The position numbers were made by a program, and so were the translations under genes. From Leptotrichiaceae bacterium (GTDB lineage: Bacteria > Fusobacteriota > Fusobacteriia > Fusobacteriales > Leptotrichiaceae), in contig JAUNKI010000107.1 in the NCBI GenBank assembly GCA_030532815.1, positions 1 to 7,037 of the forward strand: DNA of 7,037 nt. The letters are read 5' to 3'. This document shows, in pieces, positions 2,848-6,213 of this stretch (position 1 is the first letter of the stretch; every line of letters starts with the position of its first letter). Below the pieces are notes generated by a model. That model did not search any database. It saw nothing but the letters and a program-made list of their open reading frames with translations, and had not been told where the DNA came from.

Positions 2848-4662
2848 TTAACTTTTTGAGTTTTCATGTTTCTTTCTTTCAATGCCGCTTAAATATTTTT
2901 TTCTCAGCCTTATATTATTAGGTGTTATTTCCACCAGTTCATCGTCAGCAATATATTCTAAAGCCAGTTCCAGAGTAAATTCCTTAGGCGGAGCCAGTTT
3001 CAATGCATCATCACTTCCTGCGGCTCTCATATTCGTAAGTTTTTTCCCTTTGCATACATTTACTACAAGGTCATTTTCCCGTGAGTGTTCGCCGACTATC
3101 ATTCCTTCATAAACTTCAACTCCCGGACCGATAAATAATATTCCTCTCGGCTGCAGGTTATTCAATGAATATCCTATGCTTGTACCCTGTTCCAAAGCTA
3201 TAAGTACACCTTTTCTTCTTCCCGTAACATCTCCTTTGTACGGTTCATATTCAAAAAATGAATGATTTAATATTCCTGTTCCCCTTGTTTCCGTTAAAAA
3301 TTCATTTCTAAAGCCGATAAGTCCTCGTGAAGGTACTTTAAATTCCAGTCTTGTATATCCGTCACTTCCCTGAACCATATTCAGCATTTCTCCTTTTCTC
3401 AAGCCCAGCTTTTCAATCACTGTGCCTACAAATTCATCAGCAACATCTATTACGGCAAGTTCAACAGGTTCCATTTTCATACCCTTTTCCTCTTTATAAA
3501 TAACTTCAGGTTTTGATACTGCCACTTCGTATCCTTCACGCCTCATATTTTCAAGTAATATGGATAACTGAAGCTCTCCTCTTCCTTTTACTATAAAAGC
3601 ATCGGGAGAATCGGTCATTTCAAGACGCATACTTACATTATGATTTACTTCCTTTGTAAGCCTTTCCAGAAGATTTCTTGAAGTGATGTACTTACCGTCT
3701 TTTCCTGCAAAAGGAGAATCATTTACAATAAAAGTCATTGCCAATGTCGGCTCATCTATGTCAATTAGCGGTAATGCACGGGGGTTTTCCCTTTCAGCAA
3801 CAGTTTCTCCTATATCTATTTTATCAATTCCCCCAATAGTAATAATGTCCCCTGCAAGAGCTTCTTCCATTTCTATTTTTTTCAGACCGTCGTATCCGTA
3901 TATTCTTGAAATTTTCCCGTTTACAAGCTCCCCGTTTCTTTTTATTAATACTATATCCTGATTTTTCCTCGCTTTTCCGTTATAAATTCTCCCTGTACCG
4001 AGTTTTCCTACATATTCATCATATTCAGTATTTGTAATAAGAATCTGAAGGGGTTCATTTTCATTTCCGTCAGGGTCATCTACATGTTTTAAAATCATAT
4101 CATACAAAGGCTTCATATCCTTATTTTCATCTTCAATATTGATTTTTGCAAATCCGTTTTTTGCAGATGCATACACTACGGGAAAATCAAGCTGCAAGTC
4201 ATTTGCTCCCAAATCTACAAATAAATCAAATACCGTATCCACAACTCCGTCAGGATCCGAATTAGGCCTGTCTATTTTATTTATTACTACAATAGGTCTA
4301 AGTCCATGCTCAAGTGCCTGCTTTAAAACATATTTTGTCTGCGGCATGACACCTTCAAAGGCATCTACAAGTAATAATACGGAATCTACCATTTTCAGTA
4401 TTCTCTGTACTTCTCCTCCGAAATCCGCATGTCCCGGTGTATCTACTATATTAATTTTATATTCATTATAATAAATGGAAGCATTTTTAGAAAAAATCGT
4501 AATTCCTCTTTCTCTTTCCAAATCATTACTGTCCATTACCCTTTCGCTTACTTTTTCATGTTCTGCAAATGTTCCTGCCTGTTTTAACAGTGCATCCACT
4601 AAAGTAGTTTTTCCGTGATCAACGTGTGCGATAATTGCTATATTTTTTATTTTATTACTCAT
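2848..4662 (-). CDS. typA: Ribosome-associated translational GTPase TypA/BipA
   Basis: A GTPase of the EF-G/LepA superfamily that binds the 70S ribosome. In studied bacteria it supports ribosome assembly, growth in the cold and stress responses. The length, 604 aa, is normal for the family. The G domain is complete: G1 AHVDHGKTT (12-20), G2 threonine in RGITI (52-56), G3 DTPGHAD (74-80), G4 NKID (128-131) and G5 SAK (166-168). A beta-barrel domain II follows (about 200-290), then EF-G-like domains III and V (about 305-480) with VKGRGELQL (358-366) and the TypA hallmark [13 protein letters not shown] (443-455). The TypA-specific C-terminal domain runs to the end with GEHSRENDL (524-532) and a basic tail. 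The start is supported by AAAGGAG (4668-4674), 5 nt upstream. It has its own promoter and terminator and is probably transcribed alone. Confidence 0.98.
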
Positions 4663-4692
4663 TTTTGCTCCTTTATTTATTTCATAGGTGCT

Positions 4693-4722
4693 ATTATAGC
4701 ATAATTTCGGAAAAACTGTAAA
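4693..4722 (-). promoter_or_regulatory. Extended -10 promoter of typA
   Basis: On the minus strand, -10 TATAAT (4693-4698) is preceded by TGC (4699-4701), giving a perfect extended -10. The -35 box TTTACA (4717-4722) matches five of six consensus bases at 18-bp spacing. The start would fall near 4686, leaving a leader of about 24 nt with room only for the AAAGGAG ribosome site. Confidence 0.8.
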
Positions 4723-4762
4723 CTTATTTTTTAATTCATTCCAAATTCCAAACTTTCTTTCC

Positions 4763-4786
4763 GTGAGGGTTCATCATCGCCCTCAC
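4763..4786. repeat. GC-rich hairpin GTGAGGG/CCCTCAC
   Basis: GTGAGGG (4763-4769) and CCCTCAC (4780-4786) form a perfect 7-bp stem with a 10-nt loop. The stem is much richer in G/C than its surroundings. No T-run follows on either strand, so an intrinsic terminator is unlikely. It lies 17 bp from element E1 and could be part of the same repeat unit. Confidence 0.65.
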
Positions 4787-4803
4787 ACTCCTACTATCGG
4801 CTA

Positions 4804-4916
4804 CAAAATTTTTTAACACTCAAAAATATTCATTATGCTTAGAAAACAGCAAACTCGCTTCGCTCAGACAACTGTTTTCCCGAGCAGCATAATTCATATT
4901 TTTTCGCAAAATTTTG
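4804..4916 (-). repeat. Long-stem inverted repeat element E1
   Basis: An imperfect palindrome of about 113 bp. Paired blocks, from outside in, are CAAAA/TTTTG at the ends, AAAAATA (4822-4828) with TATTTTT (4897-4903), ATTATGCT (4832-4839) with AGCATAAT (4886-4893), and GAAAACAG (4842-4849) with CTGTTTTC (4872-4879). The apex holds CTCGCTTCGCTC (4854-4865). Read on the minus strand it shares its end motifs with element E2: CATTCAAAATTTT then GCG and an A-run at one end, ATTTTTGAG then TTA and AAAATTTTG at the other. I see no coding frame of useful length and no terminator-like T-run after the stem. Confidence 0.75.
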
Positions 4917-4946
4917 AATGCCGAAATTCTAACTTTTATTTTAGTT

Positions 4947-5006
4947 TTACATTTCTACTATTATTAAAATTTCACTATCCTTTCGTTTAAAAGTCATTTC
5001 TTCCAT
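4947..5006 (-). CDS. Possible 19-codon small ORF between the two repeat elements
   Basis: An ATG at 5004-5006 opens a 19-codon frame starting MEEMTFKRKD and ending IIVEM, with TAA at 4947-4949. GAAGGGA lies 7 nt upstream of the ATG and could act as a ribosome site. The peptide is charged at the start and hydrophobic at the end. It resembles no family I recognise. It occupies most of the gap between inverted elements E1 and E2, so it may be a remnant of a longer gene or a chance frame. No promoter of its own was seen. It would have to be reached by readthrough from the lipoprotein gene. Confidence 0.2.
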   Translation of the reverse strand: MEEMTFKRKDSEILIIVEM

Positions 5007-5017
5007 TTTTAGTTCCC

Positions 5018-5131
5018 TTCAACATTCAAATTTTACTGCGTGAAAAATGCAAAGAGTGAGCGTCGTAAAAACATCCTTTTTGTTTTTACAGCGAACGGGC
5101 ATTTTTGAGCTTTAGTAAAATTTGTGTTGAA
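5018..5131 (+). repeat. Long-stem inverted repeat element E2
   Basis: A 114-bp imperfect palindrome. Paired blocks are TTCAACA (5018-5024) with TGTTGAA (5125-5131), CAAATTTTACT (5027-5037) with AGTAAAATTTG (5114-5124), AAAAATGC (5043-5050) with GCATTTTT (5099-5106), and GTAAAAAC (5065-5072) with GTTTTTAC (5082-5089). The apex loop is 9 nt. The stem blocks are perfect and the joints between them are unpaired. Read on the plus strand, its ends match those of E1 read on the minus strand, so the two are related copies in opposite orientation. No T-run follows the stem, which argues against a simple terminator. Confidence 0.85.
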
Positions 5132-5146
5132 TCGTTTTTTTGCTAA

Positions 5147-5212
5147 GCTTTTTTTCCAAAAAAAGCGTGAAAAACAGTTTTTTGGTCCAACCTTTTTTAC
5201 AAAAAAGTTCGG
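5147..5212 (-). terminator. A/T hairpin cluster after the lipoprotein gene
   Basis: Two tight hairpins lie here on the minus strand, the first starting about 11 nt after the lipoprotein stop codon. The first pairs 5187-5198 with 5201-5212 (CC and six A/T pairs, one mismatch, 2-nt spacer). The second pairs GC plus a 7-T run (5147-5155) with a 7-A run plus GC (5158-5166). A third, AAAAA-CAG-TTTTT, sits between them. T-runs lie within the arms rather than after the stem, so these are weak or unusual terminators. No other candidate ends this transcript. Confidence 0.45.
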
Positions 5213-5223
5213 ATATATTTTTT

Positions 5224-6213
5224 CTATTTATCTTCAGTAAATACAGCTTTTTTTAATATTTCTTCAGGAATTTCTATTTTAAGAAATTCCATATTTTTTC
5301 TGTTTATTTCTATTTTCAGATTTTTTATTGTTTCAATAGGAATTTCCGAAGGATTTTTTCCATTTTTCAATATTTCCACTGCTATTTCTCCTGCTCTGTA
5401 CCCTATATCATAATCAGTCGTCCCTTGAGAAATCAGCCCTCCCCTGTCAGAATAAACATCACTTGTAGCAAAAACAGGTACTCTGCCGTTATTCAGAATA
5501 TCAAGTAATGTAGGAAAATATGAAGAAATTGTATTATCCTGTATTGCATAAAAAATATCCGCCTGCTTTGAAATTATATTTGCCGCTGCAACAAGCTCTG
5601 TACCGTTTGTTATTGCTTTTTCAATGATTTCAAATCCTCTTTCAGGAGCCAATTTTTTTAGATTATTCAATTCGGAAACCGAATTCTGTTCAGATGAATT
5701 ATAAATTATACCGATTTTCTTCGCTTTCGGAAATATTTGTTTCATCAACTCAAGATTTTCATTAATCGGAGCTGCTCCGCTCGTTCCCGTAATATTTGCA
5801 ATGCCTTCCAGTCCTGCACCTTTAGGATCCGTAACTGCAGCTATGACAATAGGGATATCCTTTATCTGATTTTTTGCCGCCTGAGATGTCGGAGTAGTTA
5901 TTGCATACACCAAATCTTTTTTATCCGCTGAAAATTGCTGCATTATTAATGTCTGTGTAGGTATTTCCCCATTGGCAATCTTATCATCAAATGACGCTTT
6001 TATTCCTGCTTTTTCCAAAGCATCCTTAAATCCCTGTTTAGCCGAATTTAACGCCGGATGATCAACTATCTGGGATATCCCTATTTTGTAAATTTTTTCT
6101 TCAACTTGAGTCTTCTCAACTTTCTTCTCTTTTTTATTTCCGCTTTCTCCACATGACAGTAGCATGCCTCCTAACATACCGAATAACAGTACACCTCTCA
6201 TAATTGTTTTCAT
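5224..6213 (-). CDS. ABC transporter substrate-binding lipoprotein, TrpX/ABC_sub_bind type
   Basis: This is a membrane-anchored solute-binding protein of the COG2984 / ABC_sub_bind family, in which the studied member TrpX serves tryptophan uptake. It has 329 aa, normal for the family. The N-terminus is a lipoprotein signal: basic MKTIMR, a hydrophobic stretch, then lipobox LLSC with the acylated cysteine at 21. A charged Lys/Glu linker follows (about 27-40). The periplasmic-binding fold starts at YKIGISQIVDHPALN (42-56) and shows family-typical blocks around ITTPTSQAA (105-113), PIVIAAVTDPKGAGL (121-135), IGIIYNSSEQNS (167-178) and GGLISQGTTDYDIGYRAG (258-275). The start is supported by AAGGAGGA (6221-6228), 7 nt upstream. 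No permease or ATPase gene lies beside it on either side within this window. The substrate is inferred only from family membership and could be another aromatic or small solute. Confidence 0.9.
   Translation of the reverse strand: MKTIMRGVLLFGMLGGMLLSCGESGNKKEKKVEKTQVEEKIYKIGISQIVDHPALNSAKQGFKDALEKAGIKASFDDKIANGEIPTQTLIMQQFSADKKDLVYAITTPTSQAAKNQIKDIPIVIAAVTDPKGAGLEGIANITGTSGAAPINENLELMKQIFPKAKKIGIIYNSSEQNSVSELNNLKKLAPERGFEIIEKAITNGTELVAAANIISKQADIFYAIQDNTISSYFPTLLDILNNGRVPVFATSDVYSDRGGLISQGTTDYDIGYRAGEIAVEILKNGKNPSEIPIETIKNLKIEINRKNMEFLKIEIPEEILKKAVFTEDK

Follow-up and report, generated by a model that had tools for sequence, protein, structure and literature searches.

Two inverted long-stem palindromes with outer mini-hairpins form a composite, high-copy intergenic repeat in a Leptotrichiaceae genome

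The window, that is, the whole stretch of 7,037 nucleotides analysed here (contig JAUNKI010000107.1), comes from a draft genome of 1.85 Mb in 230 contigs that is 82.5% complete (G000). Because its TypA protein is 88% identical to that of two Leptotrichia records (records of near kin were possibly left out of this comparison), the source appears to be a Leptotrichiaceae genus close to Leptotrichia. The gap between the typA/bipA gene and an ABC transporter substrate-binding protein gene holds two long-stem palindromes, E1 and E2, which face each other and raise the question of whether they are mobile DNA, a signal serving the neighbouring genes, or AT-rich sequence that folds by accident. The locus was compared, among others, with a complete genome of the same genus (G001), a sister species (G002) and a member of another genus (G009). 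From left to right, the gap contains a mini-hairpin, E1, a 95-bp spacer, E2 and two further mini-hairpins, placed among the neighbouring features as follows.

2848..4662, minus strand: typA/bipA gene (BipA_C and GTP_EFTU domains)
4722-4693: promoter-like site for typA, between E1 and typA and left of the whole repeat (TTTACA-18-TATAAT, 11/12 matches)
4763..4786, no strand assigned: type ii mini-hairpin (GTGAGGG..CCCTCAC) at the outer foot of the E1 unit, recognised by its fold; the same hairpin adjoins E1 at other loci
4797..4922, minus strand (given in the common E frame, that is, with the 5' end facing E2): E1 long-stem palindrome (covariance model R2, 155.3 bits on the plus strand; R1, 37.7 bits on the minus strand)
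4851..4870, minus strand: E1 apex motif TGTCTGAGCGAAGCGAGTTT, whose gapped pattern occurs in 25/98 Fusobacteriota genomes
4923..5017, no strand assigned: E1-E2 spacer, itself repeated (18 places in G000 loci)
5018..5131, plus strand: E2 long-stem palindrome (model R1, 144.1 bits; copies in its own genome; covariation), its inner stem bracketed by TGAGC (5057-5061) and GCGAA (5091-5095)
5147..5166, no strand assigned: mini-hairpin 1 (GCTTTTTTTCCAAAAAAAGC) behind E2, with a T-run ahead of the hairpin, recognised by sequence; the same design stands behind G001 copies
5186..5213, no strand assigned: mini-hairpin 2 (TCCAACCTTTTTT..AAAAAAGTTCGGA), recognised by its fold; similar extra tails stand behind some G001 copies
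5224..6213, minus strand: ABC transporter substrate-binding protein gene (PF04392, E 1.4e-69)

E1 with its flank (4735-4925) folds at -42.1 kcal/mol (z -5.9), and 0 of 200 shuffles folded as well; E2 with its tail (5010-5220, minus strand) folds with a z of -2.84, equalled by 1 of 200 shuffles. The two long-stem palindromes recognised in the first-pass annotation are thus real. Its limits for E2 were kept, and those of E1 proved slightly wider as defined by the covariance model. That annotation did not include the three mini-hairpins flanking the pair on the outside, nor the membership of the spacer in the repeat. The unit is not a bare palindrome: a mini-hairpin stands at the 3' foot of each long one. 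The stop codon of the ABC gene lies about 10 nt from the outer mini-hairpin, and mini-hairpin 2 may be the remnant tail of an older unit adjoining the gene. Promoter-like sites in the region numbered 3, against 1.7 expected by chance. A tRNA gene (2564-2645) was the sole Rfam match in the window.

Both palindromes recur in their own genome. With fragments included, BLAST returned 44 matches to E1 and 52 to E2 with its tail in G000, the number of scored candidates being capped at 40. The covariance searches, in which scoring by model was capped at 93 and 150 candidates, gave 64 (G000), 33 (G001), 69 (G002) and 2 (G009) matches for the E1 model. The E2 model had 58, 67, 29 and 2 matches in the same genomes and a single marginal one in G045, with no match in the remaining 35 of the 40 genomes. 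All these copy numbers are rough, and the counts of the two models cannot be summed because some sites are matched by both. Single occurrence in the genome, which would speak against a repeat family, is thus contradicted by both types of search.

Other loci align continuously with E1, the spacer and E2 (e.g. 386 columns, 89%). The spacer was found at 18 distinct places, the window included, with 72-100% identity (50 partly overlapping G000 loci), so that the doublet has the conserved spacer characteristic of the replicative unit of a REPIN. In G001, the same facing arrangement is seen at four sites, in pairs made up of two types. Furthermore, truncated units are joined to the next unit at one and the same E2|E1-hairpin junction in chimeras found at three contig places; another chimera, in which half an E1 adjoins a different type, was found at two. 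E1, the 95-bp spacer and E2 are one composite high-copy repeat, and the head-to-head arrangement with about 100 bp between, as first described, holds with an interval that is itself conserved. Because several contigs begin inside repeats (e.g. C140, C167, C173 and C223), the G000 assembly probably undercounts the composite copies. Plasmid and phage records contained no match to the composite. One E1 copy in G000 (L014 360-420) is without its centre, lost between short direct repeats GGAAAA, as expected from replication slippage across a hairpin; the G002 copy (L144 61-187) is intact. Upon inspection, an E2 copy (L041 1501-1614) has exchanged its outer arms and kept the orientation of its centre.

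The fold of E2 is conserved among copies. In an alignment of 47 E2-type copies from four genomes, 97.9% of the cells were paired, and shifting the partner by 1-3 columns lowered pairing to 34-51%. Changes on both sides were present in 11 of 28 pairs (58 cells), figures that kinship among copies can inflate, against shuffle means of 4.2 and 18.2, and 0 of 500 shuffles reached either value. The alignment covers E2-type copies apart from three diverged E2-like ones (L011, L013 and L117:2128-2238), other centre types and unretrieved G001 copies. The outermost foot, which lies outside that structure, has complementary arms of at least 3 nt in 42 of the 47 rows, in several different forms. At the purH-purD site, three pairs had changed on both sides, one on one side and three were broken in G001, the corresponding numbers in G002 being two, three and three. 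A second orthologous site gave two, two and two, and a third, whose reference folds poorly, gave two, none and 12. Since compensation at orthologous sites is thin when taken by itself, we base the covariation on the 47-copy alignment.

A tail hairpin accompanies the copies. A mini-hairpin of three types, detected with loose patterns, lies within 45 nt 3' of all 32 non-array G001 copies examined, and the T-run motif is found on the 3' side of 19 of these 32 and on the 5' side of none. The flanks of several G001 copies, when read by eye, contain a further end remnant with another mini-hairpin behind it. Such extra remnants and hairpins could represent older units, a reading that mini-hairpin 2 of the window would fit.

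Alignment of the reverse complement of E1 with E2 from end to end yielded a score of 37; dinucleotide shuffles aligned in the same way had a mean of 0.9 (sd 9.9), and only 1 of 2000 reached 37. Local alignment gave a weaker result, its score being reached by 47 of 2000 shuffles. In addition, each model recognises the other element on the minus strand in 52,955 bases (E2 model on E1, E 3.2e-5; E1 model on E2, E 2.1e-4). Part of this cross-matching is expected of any palindrome, because each model also matches its own element on the wrong strand (E 0.0024 for the E2 model and 7.3e-6 for the E1 model). The ends that the two elements had been said to share on opposite strands are therefore borne out by the end-to-end score, with weaker local support. 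E1 and E2 belong to one palindrome superfamily, within which they have diverged, and are read on opposite strands, in agreement with the inverted pair of one repeat family that the first reading proposed. A similar end frame surrounds further centres in G001, in elements of 128 and 127-144 bp, and on these centre types the matches of the E1 model (best E 4.9e-12) and those of the E2 model fall on opposite strands. The E2 type ends in CAAC/GTTG and the 127-144 bp type in CGAC/GTCG.

Copies lie at the 3' ends of genes. Neighbouring genes in G000 were taken from simple ORF calls with a minimum of 80 aa: 23 of 24 E2 copies have a downstream gene antiparallel to them, and 13 of 15 E1 copies have an upstream gene directed toward them. 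Of the 40 G001 copies examined, 27 have an antiparallel downstream gene, or 25 of 32 when an eight-copy array is set apart; 13 of those 25 copies start 31-45 nt from the stop codon. Depletion from divergent gaps in G001 was not significant (2/28 with a copy versus 8/37 without, p 0.17). Strand also followed GC skew in G001, where 42 of 58 non-array copies among the matches listed (66 of the 67 counted) lie on the expected strand; by inspection, three of the six non-array copies between convergent genes do so. We set this bias aside as evidence of single-strand transposition because the copies follow gene orientation too.

Comparison with related species revealed that the element type at one gene end can change. 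At the ABC gene end, the G000 element is E2, that of G002 is of an E1 type (E 9.1e-16), and G001 has a remnant of E2 (E 0.0043); the polarity is the same in all three. The synteny of the window is kept in G002, where the E1-type element points as the window E2 does. In G001, the ABC gene is located elsewhere, with the weak remnant at its 3' end, and the region upstream of typA contains no convincing element, the best match having an E of 1.4. In G009, the 3' end of the ABC gene carries a long palindrome of a different family (L255:2638-2778) with a weak match to the E2 model (E 0.002). This genome has its own long-stem palindrome family of about 140-160 bp, with 26 matches, 21 of them near full length, and the downstream gene is antiparallel in 9 of 13 copies; it also has an E1-model match (L251:3961-4090, E 5.5e-5) about 640 bp beyond the typA 3' end. 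Because the ABC gene end of the Leptotrichia-like G004 (L256) matches neither model, an element at this gene end is not universal.

Other gene ends behave similarly. At purH-purD (PF01808; GARS domains), all three species have E2 at the same position, and only G000 has E1 and the spacer in addition. Another gene end carries an E1 type in G002 and a 143-bp type in G001; at one, E2 is present in G000 with no match in G001; and at one, E1 is present in both G000 and G002, with a further unit only in G000. The search for empty sites in relatives, suggested at first as a check, found no clean one in the aligned orthologous gene ends, nor any target-site duplication, because the intergenic flanks of the sister species have diverged and do not realign. 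A site in G002 (C4, near 93.4 kb) that looked by eye like a degenerate element scored E 4.6 and was not used.

The apex motif extends beyond the genus. The apex pattern AAACTCGC-N2-26-GCTCRGACA, which describes the apex of E1 and of a 142-bp type, occurs up to 36 times per genome and in 9 of 29 Fusobacteriota genera; the reversed control pattern occurred once in the same 98 genomes, in G001. Folding was examined at twelve apex sites, each taken from a different genome (12 genomes, seven genera): they form long hairpins, with stems that are alike among members of one genus and unlike from one genus to the next. The T-run tail motif stands on the 3' side of 5 of these 12 sites and on the 5' side of none, with 0.014 expected per 100 nt. 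The downstream gene is antiparallel at 6 of the 12 apex sites of other genera, with no clear bias. Among 2.9 million viral contigs, the tail hairpin TTTTGGTTACTTTT..AAAAGTAAC was observed in 14 (L297-L310; 30-69% G+C), and no exact match was obtained with either of two forms of the apex pattern. The tail part of one of these contigs matches three Acinetobacter baumannii records, in which no feature is listed there. The 120 nt before the hairpin fell in the lowest tenth of same-contig fold windows in 10 of the 14 contigs, and those after it in 2. Because this test was chosen after the Fusobacteriota data and the contigs are of unassigned source, we regard the tail hairpin after stable folds in unrelated contigs as a lead, not as a result.

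On balance, we consider that the E1/E2 repeat probably consists of non-autonomous palindromes, likely mobile DNA, that stack at gene 3' ends. This explanation builds on the observed copy number, inverted pairing, conserved spacer, covarying stems and mini-hairpins, together with the gene-3'-end position, the type differences between sister species and the chimeras with a common junction; it is from these that we infer mobility. The composite repeat, with two inverted halves that each comprise a long palindrome and a mini-hairpin at the outer foot, would be moved in trans by an enzyme that a search confined to the Y1 family did not reveal. Copies would arrive by transposition of a folded strand, the enzyme reading the conserved TGAGC..GCGA internal loop and the mini-hairpin, and would settle at gene 3' ends, against or inside older copies. 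The type changes at one gene end could then be new insertions beside old copies, which subsequently decay. Several observations count against mobility: a search confined to the Y1 family found no transposase, and neither a clean empty site nor a target-site duplication was seen. Moreover, E2 at purH-purD is stable in three species, as selection for a function would give, and gene conversion could also spread composite junctions common to several places. The non-significant depletion from divergent gaps and the local E1-E2 score weigh likewise against the explanation as a whole.

A broader proposal, which we put forward tentatively and consider doubtful in its full extent, is a protein-free two-hairpin mobile lineage composed of a TGAGC..GCGA-loop palindrome and a TTTTTGGTTACTTTT..AAAAGTAAC-type tail hairpin. 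It would predate the split of the Fusobacteriota genera, live at gene 3' ends and exist well beyond the phylum, keeping its fold while swapping stem sequence, stacking new on old and being moved by a transposase other than the tyrosine enzyme of REP elements. The usual explanation of REP-like repeats is a resident tyrosine transposase. In the present case, a complete genome in which no such enzyme was found contains dozens of palindromes that are structured, covarying and often inverted, the core motif is present in 9 of 29 Fusobacteriota genera, and the second hairpin also stands beside stable folds in unrelated contigs. If the repeat is mobile, a transposition route without the known enzyme awaits discovery; if not, the Fusobacteriota have a 3'-end device undescribed in the literature searched. 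Either way, the question is testable with cultured Leptotrichiaceae.

The main rival to mobile DNA, which we judge unlikely while taking it seriously, is a 3'-end RNA element: the palindromes would terminate transcription or stabilise mRNA 3' ends, selection would maintain them, and gene conversion would keep the copies alike. The position at gene 3' ends, the covarying stems and the retention of E2 at purH-purD in three species are all consistent with such a role. A scan for intrinsic terminators (a G+C-rich stem directly followed by a T-run) found 0 sites in window 4660-5260, and this result bears on both sides: no consensus terminator was found between the ABC gene and the typA promoter-like site, but the region scanned includes the elements themselves. 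There is no fixed RNA strand, because E2 is antisense to the abutting gene (23/24) while E1 is sense to the upstream gene (13/15). Furthermore, the type differs between species at the same gene end, a gene end can be without an element, and the chimeras and composites with conserved spacers fit spread better than upkeep. Rfam 15 has no family for the element, and 10 element-bearing loci gave three matches up to E 1, all below gathering scores.

The repeat could also owe its mobility to a RAYT, a Y1 tyrosine transposase, and so be a genuine REP/BIME or REPIN system, in line with the RAYT possibility raised in the first-pass annotation. High-copy intergenic palindromes in inverted pairs that form mosaics are present here, so that this part of the likeness stands. 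The engine was not found: the Y1 family (PF01797) had 0 matches in G000 (which is incomplete), in the complete G001, which has 67 E2-model matches, and in G009, and G002 has one Y1 gene with a stop inside. As a control, PF01797 did detect the family in 5 of 14 genomes, among them E. coli. Y1 genes are present in other genera that have the apex motif, but the two show no simple link: three genomes of one other genus, G004, G018 and G029, gave 9, 7 and 4 Y1 matches against 36, 13 and 0 apex motifs, respectively, and an apex-like motif, searched loosely, lies near only 1 of 10 Y1 loci. REP/BIME units measure about 20-40 bp and have GTAG or CGTC at one end, tags that the parts of the literature drawn on here describe together with the features of REPINs (PMC3116915, PMC3733652). 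The present units measure about 110-145 bp, and although GTAG lies within the E1 outer foot (4801-4804, minus strand), GTAG/CGTC or the complement occurs in the first or last 12 nt of only 2 of the 47 E2-type copies and is absent from 45. A RAYT system is therefore very improbable as the source of these repeats.

Non-autonomous palindromes of this kind share features with several known classes. As far as the portions of the sources used here go, the likeness to REP/BIME and REPIN systems lies in palindromes that are intergenic, dispersed and present in many copies, in a unit of spread made of an inverted doublet and its spacer, and in mosaics (PMC3116915, PMC3733652). The differences are the separate mini-hairpin beside a palindrome of about 110-145 bp, the 45 of 47 copies without tags and, with regard to REPINs, the lack of Y1 matches in the complete G001 and in G009, both of which have this or a similar family. 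The TIR repeats of TIRtrons, according to the part of the source consulted, are in some cases self-complementary, occur as monomers, dimers and clusters, and predominate in REP-less species (PMC3733652). The present repeats resemble them in self-complementarity and in occurring as monomers, dimers and clusters; however, in a comparison by description and not by sequence, TIRtron TIRs flank tyrosine-transposase genes (PMC3733652), of which none was found in G001. A 131-bp repeat of Fusobacterium nucleatum subsp. polymorphum, reported seventeen times, mostly intergenic and of unknown function in the passages of its description used here (PMC1924603), shares phylum, similar length and mostly intergenic position with the window repeat. 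Those passages are silent on palindromes, and on this comparison by description, not sequence, the two could be of the same class (PMC1924603). A literature word search, with subscription journals and figures outside its scope, yielded no recognised description of the window repeat.

Miniature inverted-repeat elements (MITEs) are short, non-coding and present in high copy, with inverted-repeat ends. The repeat has all of these properties and may or may not be a MITE: between flanks too diverged to realign among species, neither a target-site duplication nor a clean empty site was seen, and a search of the Y1 family only found no parent transposase. A palindrome with a 3' mini-hairpin is a unit described by neither REP nor MITE.

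A further possibility, integron-like recombination at folded, attC-like sites, is highly improbable. The CAAC/GTTG ends around a folded palindrome would suit it, as would eight same-orientation copies about 1-3 kb apart between the modules of an exoprotein locus in G001. The core ends of attC sites are conserved as AAC/GTT, but the 127-144 bp type ends in CGAC/GTCG, and on this ground the attC reading was rejected; moreover, the array modules look on reading like repeated pieces of one locus, not like unrelated cassettes. Finally, accidental folding of AT-rich sequence, to which the only moderate local-alignment test of E1 against E2 (47/2000) would lend something, is practically untenable in view of high copy number and covariation and is already refuted by copy number.

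The array locus itself (L109 3634-14948, at 46.6-57.9 kb of G001:C1) contains eight palindromes of 128-129 bp in the same orientation between large exoprotein-locus modules. One ORF has a Fil_haemagg_2 domain, and repeated C-terminal pieces are then followed by small lipoprotein-like genes, one of which was scanned and matched no Pfam family. This layout may resemble the orphan modules of contact-dependent systems.
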